Notes under the pieces: model-generated
Told to the model about the DNA's origin: nothing
Databases searched by the model: none
What the model saw: the letters and a program-made list of their open reading frames with translations, nothing else
Part shown: positions 45,856-47,091 of the stretch, piece after piece
How positions within the stretch are numbered: position 1 is the stretch's first letter
How the letters are laid out: every line of letters starts with the position of its first letter
Position numbers and translations under genes: made by a program
NCBI GenBank assembly: GCA_015069695.1
Contig: JADCRZ010000001.1
Coordinates: 372,001 to 436,000, forward strand
Length of the DNA: 64,000 nucleotides
DNA from: Williamsia sp.
GTDB taxonomy: Bacteria; Bacteroidota; Bacteroidia; Chitinophagales; Chitinophagaceae
Direction of reading: 5' to 3'

Positions 45856-45930
45856 TTCCTTCTACAGGGGTCGAACCTGTAACCTTCCGTTTCGTAGACG
45901 GACGCTCTATCCAAATTGAGCTAAGAAGGA
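45856..45930 (-). tRNA. tRNA-Arg(ACG)
   Basis: A 75-nt cloverleaf. The acceptor TCCTTCT pairs with AGAAGGA; the D-stem is GCTC/GAGC with GG in the loop; the anticodon stem is TCCGT/ACGGA with loop CTACGAA (anticodon ACG); the T-arm is ACAGG-TTCGACC-CCTGT. U8 and A14 are present. CCA is not encoded. It is the last of three tRNAs, 3 nt after tRNA-His. Anticodon ACG needs A34-to-inosine editing and then reads CGT, CGC and CGA. Confidence 0.88.
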
Positions 45931-45933
45931 GGG

Positions 45934-46005
45934 GGCGTATGACCGGGAACGATCCGGGTTCTCCCCATTCACAGTGGGGCGCATCACCTTAATGCTTCAT
46001 ACACC
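45934..46005 (-). tRNA. tRNA-His(GTG), divergent
   Basis: A 72-nt cloverleaf with the extra 5' G at 46005 facing discriminator C73, the hallmark of tRNA-His. The acceptor GTGTATG pairs with CATACGC (one G-U); the D-stem is GCAT/ATGC; the anticodon stem is CCCCA/TGGGG with loop CTGTGAA (anticodon GTG). Deviations are A8 with T14 (a swap of the normal U8-A14), a T-loop of ATCGTTC instead of TTCRANN, and one C-T mismatch in the T-stem. It may be specialised or decaying. Only 1 nt separates it from tRNA-Gln. Confidence 0.75.
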
Positions 46006-46006
46006 G

Positions 46007-46077
46007 TTCCGGTTAGAGGACTCGAACCTCTTCCTGCACTGTCAAAGAGTGCCGCACTGCCTGTATGCAAAACCGGA
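46007..46077 (-). tRNA. tRNA-Gln(TTG)
   Basis: A 71-nt cloverleaf. The acceptor TCCGGTT pairs perfectly with AACCGGA; the D-stem is GCAT/GTGC; the anticodon stem is GCACT/AGTGC with loop CTTTGAC (anticodon TTG); the T-arm is AGAGG-TTCGAGT-CCTCT. The discriminator is A and CCA is not encoded. It is the first tRNA after the attenuator-like terminator, 17 nt beyond its T-tract, and has no promoter element of its own that I can see. Confidence 0.82.
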
Positions 46078-46094
46078 CTATTCTTCACTTCCGC

Positions 46095-46130
46095 AAAACA
46101 AAAAGCCCTTCGAAAAAATCGAAGGGCTGC
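46095..46130 (-). terminator. Intrinsic terminator between leader ORF and tRNA array (attenuator)
   Basis: On the minus strand AGCCCTTCG (46128-46120), loop ATTTTTT, CGAAGGGCT (46112-46104), then TTTTGTTTT. The stem is 9 bp and perfect. It lies 28 nt after the stop of the leader ORF and 17 nt before tRNA-Gln. Its 5' arm, read with two more bases as GCAGCCCT, is perfectly complementary to AGGGCTGC at 46194-46187 inside the ORF, so an alternative antiterminator pairing exists. Confidence 0.8.
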
Positions 46131-46157
46131 TAAAAAGTTATGCTAAGTGAAAATTAT

Positions 46158-46238
46158 CTAGTCTCCGTTTTCATGCACAACAATACGCAGCCCTGTTCCG
46201 GGTTGGCGTGTATGATGTGTATGAATGTTTGTGATCAT
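46158..46238 (-). CDS. 26-residue leader peptide rich in His, with HTHHTRQ run
   Basis: ATG at 46238, TAG at 46160-46158. The peptide starts MITNIHTHHTRQPGTG, so His6, His8, His9, Arg11 and Gln12 are clustered; codons are CAT, CAT, CAT, CGC and CAA. The predicted transcription start lies within 1-3 nt of the ATG, so the message would be almost leaderless. The segment AGGGCTGC (end of codon 15 to codon 18) pairs with the terminator arm downstream. The tRNAs that follow read exactly these Gln, His and Arg codons. I infer an attenuation leader in which stalling at the run frees AGGGCTGC to form an antiterminator. It is too small for family recognition. Confidence 0.65.
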   Translation of the reverse strand: MITNIHTHHTRQPGTGLRIVVHENGD

Positions 46239-46242
46239 AGGG

Positions 46243-46273
46243 CAAAAGTAAAAAGATTTTTCATCTCACAAAA
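46243..46273 (-). promoter_or_regulatory. Bacteroidetes-type promoter of the leader-tRNA unit
   Basis: On the minus strand TTTTG (46273-46269), 18-bp spacer, TACTTTTG (46250-46243). The ATG of the leader ORF is 5 nt beyond the -7 element. No other element of this type precedes the tRNAs, so their transcription seems to depend on passing the terminator. Confidence 0.65.
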
Positions 46274-46467
46274 TAGAATTTTATATTTTTACTATTGATA
46301 CATATCCGCTACACTTGGCAACAAATTCTATTTGCAATAATTCAGCTGTCCTATGGTTTGCTCAGATCGATTGGCTCAAATGATGTGAGCGCAAACCTGT
46401 CGTTTGCAGAATTTTACCAGTAAGTTAATTAAAACAGCTTACCGATCATCCGTCTTAAAAACAAGTG

Positions 46468-47091
46468 ATGCATACAAAAGCAGCCCAAACGTATATCTCC
46501 AAGCTAGCTGGTAGCAGTCTTTCCAAGTATGTAGACGTGGTATTCTTTCTGAAATTTATTGTGCTGATGGGAGGGATTTATTATTTCAATGTGTTTTATA
46601 TCTCAATTATCGATGCCAGAGGCTATATCTACAGCAGCTTCTTCGATCAGCACCTGAATTATTTTTCTCTGCTCAGAGCGTCTATATTACACACAGCCAA
46701 TTTTCTGGATCATCTCTACGGGTTAGATTCATACGTCGCCGATCCATATCGGCTGAAACTGCAGAATGGCCACGGTGTATTTGTCGATCTTGCGTGTTTG
46801 GGCTACGGGGTCATGAGCTTTTGGGTTGCTTTTATACTTGCTCATAATAACAGCTGGCAAAAGAAGCTGATCTGGTCAGTGGGAGGAATTGTTTTTTTGT
46901 GGTTTCTGAATTGCTGTAGAGTGGCATTACTGATAGTATCAATCGTGAAGCGGTGGAATACGGAGAGATGGATGGACAGCCATGCTTTGTTTAACTTGAT
47001 CGTTTATTCGTTTATCATCATGATGATCTTTTTTTATTATAAGCTTAGCAAGCGCAAAGAAGGCAGCAGCAGGCTTGCACCGGACCTGTAA
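46468..47091 (+). CDS. Exosortase/archaeosortase family protein
   Basis: Multi-pass inner-membrane cysteine peptidase-transpeptidase of 207 residues; the start is the ATG at 46468 (a GTG at 46465 is directly before it). The catalytic triad of the family is visible: C110 in VDLACLGYGVMSF, R151 in NCCRVALLIV, and H172 in DSHALFN. Hydrophobic segments flank each. It resembles the short Bacteroidota types (XrtY/XrtF-like), but I cannot fix the subtype. Exosortases cut C-terminal sorting signals of exported proteins. A candidate substrate with a PLDGG tail lies 300 bp away, convergent. No polysaccharide-synthesis genes, the usual company of exosortases, are nearby. Confidence 0.85.
   Translation: MHTKAAQTYISKLAGSSLSKYVDVVFFLKFIVLMGGIYYFNVFYISIIDARGYIYSSFFDQHLNYFSLLRASILHTANFLDHLYGLDSYVADPYRLKLQNGHGVFVDLACLGYGVMSFWVAFILAHNNSWQKKLIWSVGGIVFLWFLNCCRVALLIVSIVKRWNTERWMDSHALFNLIVYSFIIMMIFFYYKLSKRKEGSSRLAPDL

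Follow-up and report, generated by a model that had tools for sequence, protein, structure and literature searches.

Leader-peptide attenuators that sense charged tRNA have been known for decades from amino-acid operons such as his, thr, trp and phe, in which a leader open reading frame (ORF) with control codons lies directly after the promoter and is followed by a protector, an antiterminator and a terminator. A like plan, in which the protector is imperfect and tentative, was found on the minus strand of a 64,000-nucleotide stretch of the Williamsia sp. genome GCA_015069695.1 (contig JADCRZ010000001.1, positions 372,001 to 436,000; the whole stretch is hereafter called the window). The amino-acid operon attenuators regulate biosynthesis genes, whereas the genes behind this leader encode tRNAs, accompanied in relatives of the arrangement by rtcB, and one leader apparently senses several tRNAs. 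Judged from the layout of the DNA, it is probable (roughly 0.7) that a ribosome-mediated transcription attenuator controls this operon of three spare tRNAs. Ribosome-mediated attenuation is known, and what is new is the cargo, namely spare tRNAs and in relatives a tRNA ligase.

Four described systems come close to the locus in other respects. tRNA halves activate the rtc operon by way of RtcR, so that in the rtcBA or rsr-yrlBA-rtcBA operon an RNA-repair ligase is switched on by tRNA damage, and rtcB is also present in three relatives of the window arrangement; however, the sensor there is the CARF-domain protein RtcR binding the tRNA halves, the window contains no rtcB, and the main text of the report uses neither "attenuat" nor "leader" (PMC7790460). 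In Anabaena, a spare tRNA operon stays silent until translational stress and is repressed by TrcR together with rtcB, but it comprises 26 tRNAs under a protein repressor, and the words "attenuat", "leader" and "terminator" do not occur in the main text (PMC10272220). Phage tRNAs, for which resistance to anticodon nucleases has been predicted (PMC10264068) and action against tRNA-degrading defences demonstrated (PMC11555353), likewise provide extra tRNAs as replacements, and one of the cases described below (L360) lies in a viral contig, whereas the window tRNAs are chromosomal and the abstracts of both papers speak of neither attenuation nor tRNA sensing. The term "attenuator" has been applied to the glyV-X-Y tRNA operon of E. 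coli, but that element is a terminator downstream of the tRNA genes which controls read-through into datA, and "leader" is absent from the main text (PMC10950094). No leader-peptide attenuator of tRNA genes was found in the open-access literature by titles and abstract openings, in agreement with a preliminary description of the window whose author knew of no described case.

The order of elements on the minus strand was promoter, leader ORF, 10-bp terminator with T tract, tRNA-Gln(TTG), tRNA-His(GTG) and tRNA-Arg(ACG). The tRNAs were called by ARAGORN (no spacers) and Rfam (gathering score 29), and loci, genomes and contigs carry report labels (G, genome; L, locus; C, contig; G000 is the window's own genome). 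The elements are as follows.

46273–46243, minus strand: promoter, which we take to be of the Bacteroidota type, with the −33 element TTTTG at 46273–46269, an 18-nt spacer and the −7 element TACTTTTG at 46250–46243
46238–46158, minus strand: leader ORF of 26 codons, peptide MITNIHTHHTRQPGTGLRIVVHENGD
46223–46203, minus strand: proposed control codons His6-Thr-His-His-Thr-Arg11-Gln12 (CAT ACA CAT CAT ACA CGC CAA)
46223–46206, minus strand: 5' arm of the protector hairpin, imperfect, overlapping the control codons (minimum free energy, MFE, folds)
46188–46172, minus strand: 3' arm of the protector hairpin, GCGUAUUGUUGUGCAUG (MFE folds)
46194–46187, minus strand: antiterminator 5' strand AGGGCTGC, inside the ORF, a perfect 8-bp complement of 46130–46123
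46130–46123, minus strand: antiterminator 3' strand GCAGCCCT, read from the sequence and shared with the terminator 5' arm
46181–46175, minus strand: 5' strand of a second antiterminator helix, GTTGTGC (fold of 46194–46118)
46143–46137, minus strand: 3' strand of the second antiterminator helix, GCATAAC (same fold)
46128–46095, minus strand: intrinsic terminator, 10-bp stem at 46128–46104 and T tract to 46095, −17.6 kcal/mol
46077–46006, minus strand: tRNA-Gln(TTG), divergent second copy, 53.7 bits, identical to the other Gln(TTG) gene at 39 of 72 positions
46005–45931, minus strand: tRNA-His(GTG), divergent second copy abutting tRNA-Gln, 35.2 bits, identical to the other His gene at 42 of 78 positions
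45930–45855, minus strand: tRNA-Arg(ACG), divergent second copy abutting tRNA-His, 63.1 bits, identical to the other Arg(ACG) gene at 53 of 76 positions

The promoter, ORF, antiterminator and tRNAs were all present where the preliminary description had placed them, and the perfect complementarity of AGGGCTGC and GCAGCCCT that it reported was confirmed. Its terminator with T tract was also recovered, but the stem, given there as a perfect 9 bp, is 10 bp long. Between 46300 and 46060, no TAnnTTTG box other than that at 46250 was present (other promoter types were covered by a sigma-70 scan only). A separate promoter directly before tRNA-Gln, which the same description held to speak against attenuation, was thus not found for the Bacteroidota type, and the idea that the tRNAs have their own promoter was dropped. 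At the gathering score, the Rfam matches of the window were the three tRNAs only, with no His leader, T-box or other family, and a known RNA family for the leader was dropped on this account.

In the proposed mechanism, transcription would begin almost at the leader ATG, which lies 4 nt past the −7 box, a spacing equal to that in L254, L310 and L360. When tRNA-His, tRNA-Arg or tRNA-Gln was scarce, whether uncharged, cleaved or depleted, the leading ribosome would stall in CAT ACA CAT CAT ACA CGC CAA and open the protector hairpin, leaving AGGGCTGC free to pair with GCAGCCCT; the terminator would thereby be prevented, and tRNA-Gln, tRNA-His and tRNA-Arg would be transcribed. With all three tRNAs plentiful, the ribosome would pass, the terminator would form and the spare tRNAs would be off. 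We infer where transcription starts, that the leader is translated and ribosomes stall on it, that antitermination takes place in the cell, and which signal acts physiologically, while the parts, their possible pairings, the likeness to His leaders, the divergence of the tRNAs and the recurrence of the arrangement are observed.

Short matches to the start of the leader occur upstream of hisG in other genomes of the family. The HTHH leader pattern matched 129 of 294 genomes, with many chance matches, and 18 examined loci precede hisG; one match, L027 in G221, was rejected because it is the start of an unrelated protein, presumably TatD-like. Alignment A1 was composed of 20 leaders, comprising these 18 with hisG seen downstream, L195 (whose contig ends first) and the genome's own hisG leader; 19 of them, including L195, had been picked by a pattern demanding CAYACNCAYCA, and the own hisG leader was added to these. 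Model R1, built from A1 with the window sequence left out, picked up the window leader at 34.8 bits, the E-value being 9.5e-6 when the window was searched and 1.1e-3 for the whole genome (rough values from a short calibration). A match to R1 at E 0.01 or better was obtained in 92 of 107 family genomes, the downstream genes being inspected for part of the matches. Among the 30 best R1 family loci, hisG lies downstream in 28; 15 of the 30 came from genomes that had supplied R1, and 13 of the 15 others also had hisG. Because R1 matches it and hisG stands behind most of the best R1 loci, the window leader is by sequence of the His-attenuator type, though hisG is not directly downstream of it, the tRNAs standing there instead, and the genome's own hisG (contig C152) has a separate and different leader, MKRSHHTHLFAET.

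The window leader and the hisG leaders of the family have in common a TAnnTTTG-type box, an ATG 4–9 nt after it, HTHH codons and the order of antiterminator and terminator. They differ in the downstream gene and in the antiterminator, and the window leader has Arg and Gln codons after the His run. In the hisG type, GGTAAGC pairs with GCTTACC, and 93.1% of antiterminator cells pair, against at most 46.9% when the strands are slid; of the 20 hisG-type leaders, 15 have their stop codon inside the antiterminator, 3 have it upstream and 2 downstream. The window antiterminator AGGGCTGC is not of the GGTAAGC type and the stop is not inside it, as in 5 of the 20 hisG-type members.

R1 also matched other amino-acid leaders. 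Thr/Lys-rich leaders (KHTKRTKK type; L237–L276, L495), several with the antiterminator GGGAAGG/CCTTCCC, had an asd-type gene behind them in 24 of the 40 weaker R1 matches examined first, and dapA in L264. In the window's own genome, L256 (G000:C159:41000-42400) has a Phe/Tyr-rich leader, MNTAKAQNGFYFYYFFYFTSKPGVLC, with the pairing CCGGGAG/CTCCCGG, and precedes a prephenate dehydratase-like gene (best NCBIfam scores below cut-offs). The R1 matches L259, L497, L498, L499 and L507 lie before aminotransferase-like genes, a label given by NCBIfam below cut-offs for L259 and by likeness of the first residues for the other four.

A combined-motif scan was applied which required a promoter box, a short ORF, an antiterminator and a terminator, with no codon criterion; it was tuned and missed most hisG leaders, and is therefore specific and not sensitive. 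In the window it gave a single match, which was this locus, while 20 Markov-1 windows of 64 kb (both strands) and the reversed window gave none. Of 5000 dinucleotide shuffles of the leader, 11 contained a stretch of 8 bp or more perfectly complementary to the terminator arm, so that such complementarity rarely arises by chance. In 1.19 Mb of collected loci, the scan returned 18 leader/hairpin combinations from 17 leader loci, namely 7 His leaders, 5 Thr/Lys leaders, the Phe/Tyr leader of the own genome, the window, L254, L310 and L105, the last of which looks accidental.

The arrangement of leader and tRNAs recurred elsewhere with other codons. R1 had 69 matches weaker than E 5e-8, the window included, and the surroundings of all 68 others were inspected. 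In G097, the leader MTTIKHTRFNDSYRLFPAGMSMY (...KHTRF..., a His-Thr-Arg-Phe run) with the 8-bp antiterminator CCGGCAGG/CCTGCCGG is followed by tRNA-Phe(GAA), tRNA-Arg(ACG), tRNA-His(GTG) and then rtcB. G687, of the same genus as G097, carries the leader MTILLHTPFSKNHRIDPAGRSMC in a region 74% identical, with the same antiterminator, directly before rtcB and without tRNAs; its rtcB, available as a fragment of 232 aa, shares 66% identity with the G097 protein and scores slightly under the Pfam cut-off. The third case, L360, is an IMG/VR contig obtained by a search of viral contigs for RtcB relatives (46 loci, scanned without a codon criterion). Its Phe-rich leader MKQSTGIFFNDLHFSYFRSNKWTLFVS (...FFNDLHF...) has an antiterminator of its own, GTAACAAG/CTTGTTAC; behind the leader lie two different tRNA-Phe(GAA) genes and, after them, rtcB, and two further proteins of the contig have PHROG matches.

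The leaders of the window, G097, G687 and L360 shared one plan, with box-N4-ATG, control codons and an antiterminator within the ORF, and a terminator whose 5' arm is shared with the antiterminator. They also have a short hairpin hiding part of the antiterminator and a helix, imperfect in the window, with its 3' arm either at the antiterminator or beyond it. Lack of conservation of the pairing, which the preliminary description held to speak against attenuation, was not seen among these four tRNA/rtcB leaders, whose antiterminators pair throughout although three different sequences are used. The claim of a leader-peptide attenuator with control codons for its own tRNAs is supported by the match to the His-attenuator model and by the same architecture in G097 and L360.

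Beyond these cases, a wider viral RtcB search (83 loci, overlapping contigs) yielded no further strict case, 17 further viral loci that contain a relative of the gene preceding the L360 leader were without scan match, and the close RtcB relatives L280–L286 had neither tRNA nor scan match. Leader-specific patterns gave a sole match in viral contigs, L493 (the other pattern gave 0), which was rejected since its ORF has two codons. In two other loci, tRNAs come after rtcB, L291 (G241) with tRNA-Phe(AAA) and tRNA-Gln(TTG) and the viral contig L437 with tRNA-Arg(TCG) and tRNA-Arg(ACG), and no leader was detected in either. In G097, the base preceding the anticodon of the tRNA-His (L277:8667-8738) is C, where U is usual (loop TCGTGGA, judged by eye). 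The same locus carries a gene pair for an MNT-type nucleotidyltransferase and a HEPN protein (L277:4374-5170), about 2 kb from rtcB; MNT/HEPN pairs can be RNase toxin-antitoxin systems.

Across 492 loci with 260 tRNA calls (loci overlap), a scan match with a tRNA within 300 nt behind it was found for exactly three leaders, those of the window, G097 and L360. In all three, every amino acid of the cognate tRNAs was present in the control stretch within reach of the ribosome, Gln12 being included only through a one-base tolerance. With the 20 amino acids treated as equally likely, the single-case chance of such a codon match is 0.018 for the window, 0.105 for G097 and 0.5 for L360.

The tRNAs behind the window leader are not the ordinary ones of the genome. 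RF00005 had 47 matches in the genome, and among the recognised genes Gln(TTG), His(GTG) and Arg(ACG) are each represented twice, the window tRNAs being 54-70% identical to the ordinary copies. In all three, the base 3' of the anticodon is A in the window copy and G in the other copy (read by eye). The preliminary description had proposed a homeostatic loop in which the sensed tRNA is the regulated product. That the product is tRNA was supported, but ordinary homeostasis of housekeeping tRNAs was set aside in view of the other Gln, His and Arg genes and the low identity; since the tRNAs are divergent spare copies, replacement fits better.

In the spare tRNA-His (45931-46005), A8/U14 and A54/U58 were noted, apparently both conserved tertiary pairs swapped (numbering by eye). 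Contig C68 of the same genome holds an array (L278:6710-9939; G000:C68:10000-28000) of tRNA-Asp, a second tRNA-Pro(TGG), a second tRNA-Lys(TTT), tRNA-Asn and tRNA-like fragments, flanked by a TROVE/Ro60 protein and an RNaseH-like protein; it had no motif-scan match.

Folding was modelled at equilibrium, and for stalls the bases beneath the ribosome were kept unpaired. The whole leader folded better than 200 of 200 shuffles. The antiterminator fold reached −24.7 kcal/mol (z −3.6), with 1 of 200 shuffles as low, and none of 200 was as low as the terminator fold at −17.6 kcal/mol. In the modelled folds, all antiterminator pairs remained with stalls at His8, His9 and Arg11 of the window leader, as the preliminary description had expected, and likewise at His6, Arg8 and Phe9 in G097 and at Phe8, Phe9 and Phe14 in L360, while a stall at Phe17 of L360 left 2 of 9. 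The protector of G097 is a clear 9-bp helix, ACATACTCG/TGAGTATGT. A ribosome on the last codon was predicted to block the antiterminator in G097 (0 of 8 pairs) and L360 (0 of 9).

Several results weigh against an attenuator at the window locus. Its protector hairpin is present in the MFE fold, yet 8 of 200 shuffles folded equally well. A modelled stall at Gln12 covers two antiterminator bases and leaves 6 of 8 pairs, the partial covering foreseen in the preliminary description, and Gln12 may thus be a marginal control codon. The stop codon begins 27 nt past the antiterminator, and with a ribosome on the last sense codon all 8 of 8 antiterminator pairs were kept (−14.6 vs −25.2 kcal/mol), so that in the model such a ribosome weakens the antiterminator but does not block it; here the case for the window is weakest. 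No modelled state of the G687 leader, with or without a ribosome, contained the antiterminator. Moreover, in three of the four leaders the ribosome-free truncated transcript also folded into the antiterminator; the order of folding during transcription must therefore decide, and the modelled equilibrium folds alone do not prove a switch. In the 20 hisG leaders, no antiterminator pair was changed on both sides and 257 of 500 shuffles scored as well, so covariation within this set gives no support. Among the 68 other weaker R1 matches, only G097 has tRNAs behind it, the last 28 loci being without tRNA. The codon match, seen by eye, was the reason for choosing the window, and the His-type model led to G097, which makes L360 the only one of the three leader-tRNA cases free of codon selection. 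Finally, the window locus was found in no other genome searched.

These searches covered one other genome of the genus (84% complete), in which neither the locus nor the tRNA trio was found, the other 293 family genomes, again without locus or trio (three had a partial tRNA-Arg match), and 394 other phylum genomes, where the matches listed covered the tRNA-Arg part only. Matches in plasmids (10 records) covered part of tRNA-Arg, as did the best 20 of 171 phage matches; three phage records matched either portions of tRNA-His or 33 bases spanning the Gln/His junction. Direct homologues of the locus were thus not found in these samples, the matches listed covering tRNA parts only. Of the order of elements that the preliminary description had suggested searching for in relatives, the exact locus was not found in the genus, family and phylum samples, but the arrangement with other codons and tRNAs was present in G097 and L360.

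Two alternatives would deny the leader a function tied to these tRNAs. An ordinary upstream terminator may have met a random ORF by chance, with the tRNAs expressed constitutively through read-through. Short ORFs are indeed common, the region from 43 to 50 kb being overlapped by 106 ORFs of 20 aa or longer, and the codon match by itself is modest (0.018). Three results nevertheless make this very improbable: the scan matched once in the window and never in 20 simulated ones, the His-leader model recognises the leader (E 9.5e-6 for the window and 1.1e-3 genome-wide, roughly calibrated), and the arrangement recurs in G097 and L360. A chance origin was rejected on the simulated windows. A leader of the hisG type may instead have been duplicated or captured beside the tRNA genes; it might still sense His, its codons would be unrelated to the tRNAs, and any regulation would be incidental or decayed. 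Its hisG type and the displaced stop codon, 27 nt after the antiterminator and not inside it as in 15 of 20 hisG-type leaders, are in keeping with such a relic. Both strands of the window antiterminator, however, differ from GGTAAGC/GCTTACC and still match perfectly, which is not expected from decay, and two further leader-tRNA cases have codons matched to their tRNAs; we regard a relic as unlikely.

The third possibility is a more specific version of the attenuator reading and does not exclude it. The switch would be tuned to the cleavage or depletion of tRNAs by nucleases, such as host anticodon nucleases or toxins, and not to amino-acid supply; the spare tRNAs would resist the nuclease, phage-type RtcB would carry out repair in the relatives, and the window operon would be a domesticated or mobile form without rtcB. 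Shortage of an amino acid would stall the ribosome at the same codons, but extra tRNA would be no help, so tRNA loss or damage fits spare tRNAs and RtcB better and would be a signal sensibly answered by both. The linkage of rtcB to the leader in G097, G687 and viral L360 points to tRNA damage. The RtcB proteins of G097 and L360 match phrog_1075, tRNA splicing ligase, and that of G097 is 58-69% identical to Tenacibaculum and Cellulophaga phage proteins and up to 72% to IMG/VR contigs; by sequence, both are of the phage type. The replacement of G by A after the anticodon in all three spare tRNAs is in line with damage, as are the phage tRNAs predicted to evade anticodon nucleases (PMC10264068) and the RtcB operon that responds to broken tRNAs (PMC7790460). 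Against it, the window operon lacks rtcB, and a scan of the window proteins encoded from 28.7 kb rightward, several short ORFs excepted, recognised no tRNA nuclease. Leader and rtcB together are also rare, an insensitive scan having found the combination in 1 of 50 family RtcB loci (30 + 20 loci; G687 apart) and, of the viral RtcB loci (46; 83 overlapping), in a single contig. On balance, tuning to damage appears slightly less than an even bet.

The neighbours of the window operon are an exosortase, a type IX secretion system (T9SS) protein and a sensor kinase, the last being the next long ORF downstream; no phage gene was seen beside the tRNAs. The exosortase (46465-47091) is XrtY-like, above the cut-off for the exosortase family and below that of the NCBIfam XrtY model, and is adjoined by a 1126-aa T9SS-sorted protein.

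Together with the window locus, the arrangements of G097 and viral L360 suggest, from their gene order and codons, that a lack of particular tRNAs can be sensed by bacteria and their phages and answered by turning on substitutes. We tentatively propose, at slightly less than even odds, a class of tRNA-loss sensors in which leader codons would sample the tRNAs at risk and antitermination would release damage-resistant replacements, in several cases with RtcB. Such modules may be shared by chromosomes and phages of Bacteroidota and re-coded together with their cargo (HTRQ with Gln/His/Arg, HTRF with Phe/Arg/His, FF..F with Phe/Phe), and could serve as inducible defence or counter-defence against tRNA-cutting nucleases. 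The regulated product of attenuation here appears to be tRNA itself, and in the relatives also the tRNA-repair ligase. If this is true, cells and phages would gauge the loss of specific tRNAs through translation and answer it with replacement and repair, leader codons would predict which tRNAs are threatened by a given nuclease, and what extra tRNA copies and the tRNA cassettes of phages do could be tested directly through codon swaps.

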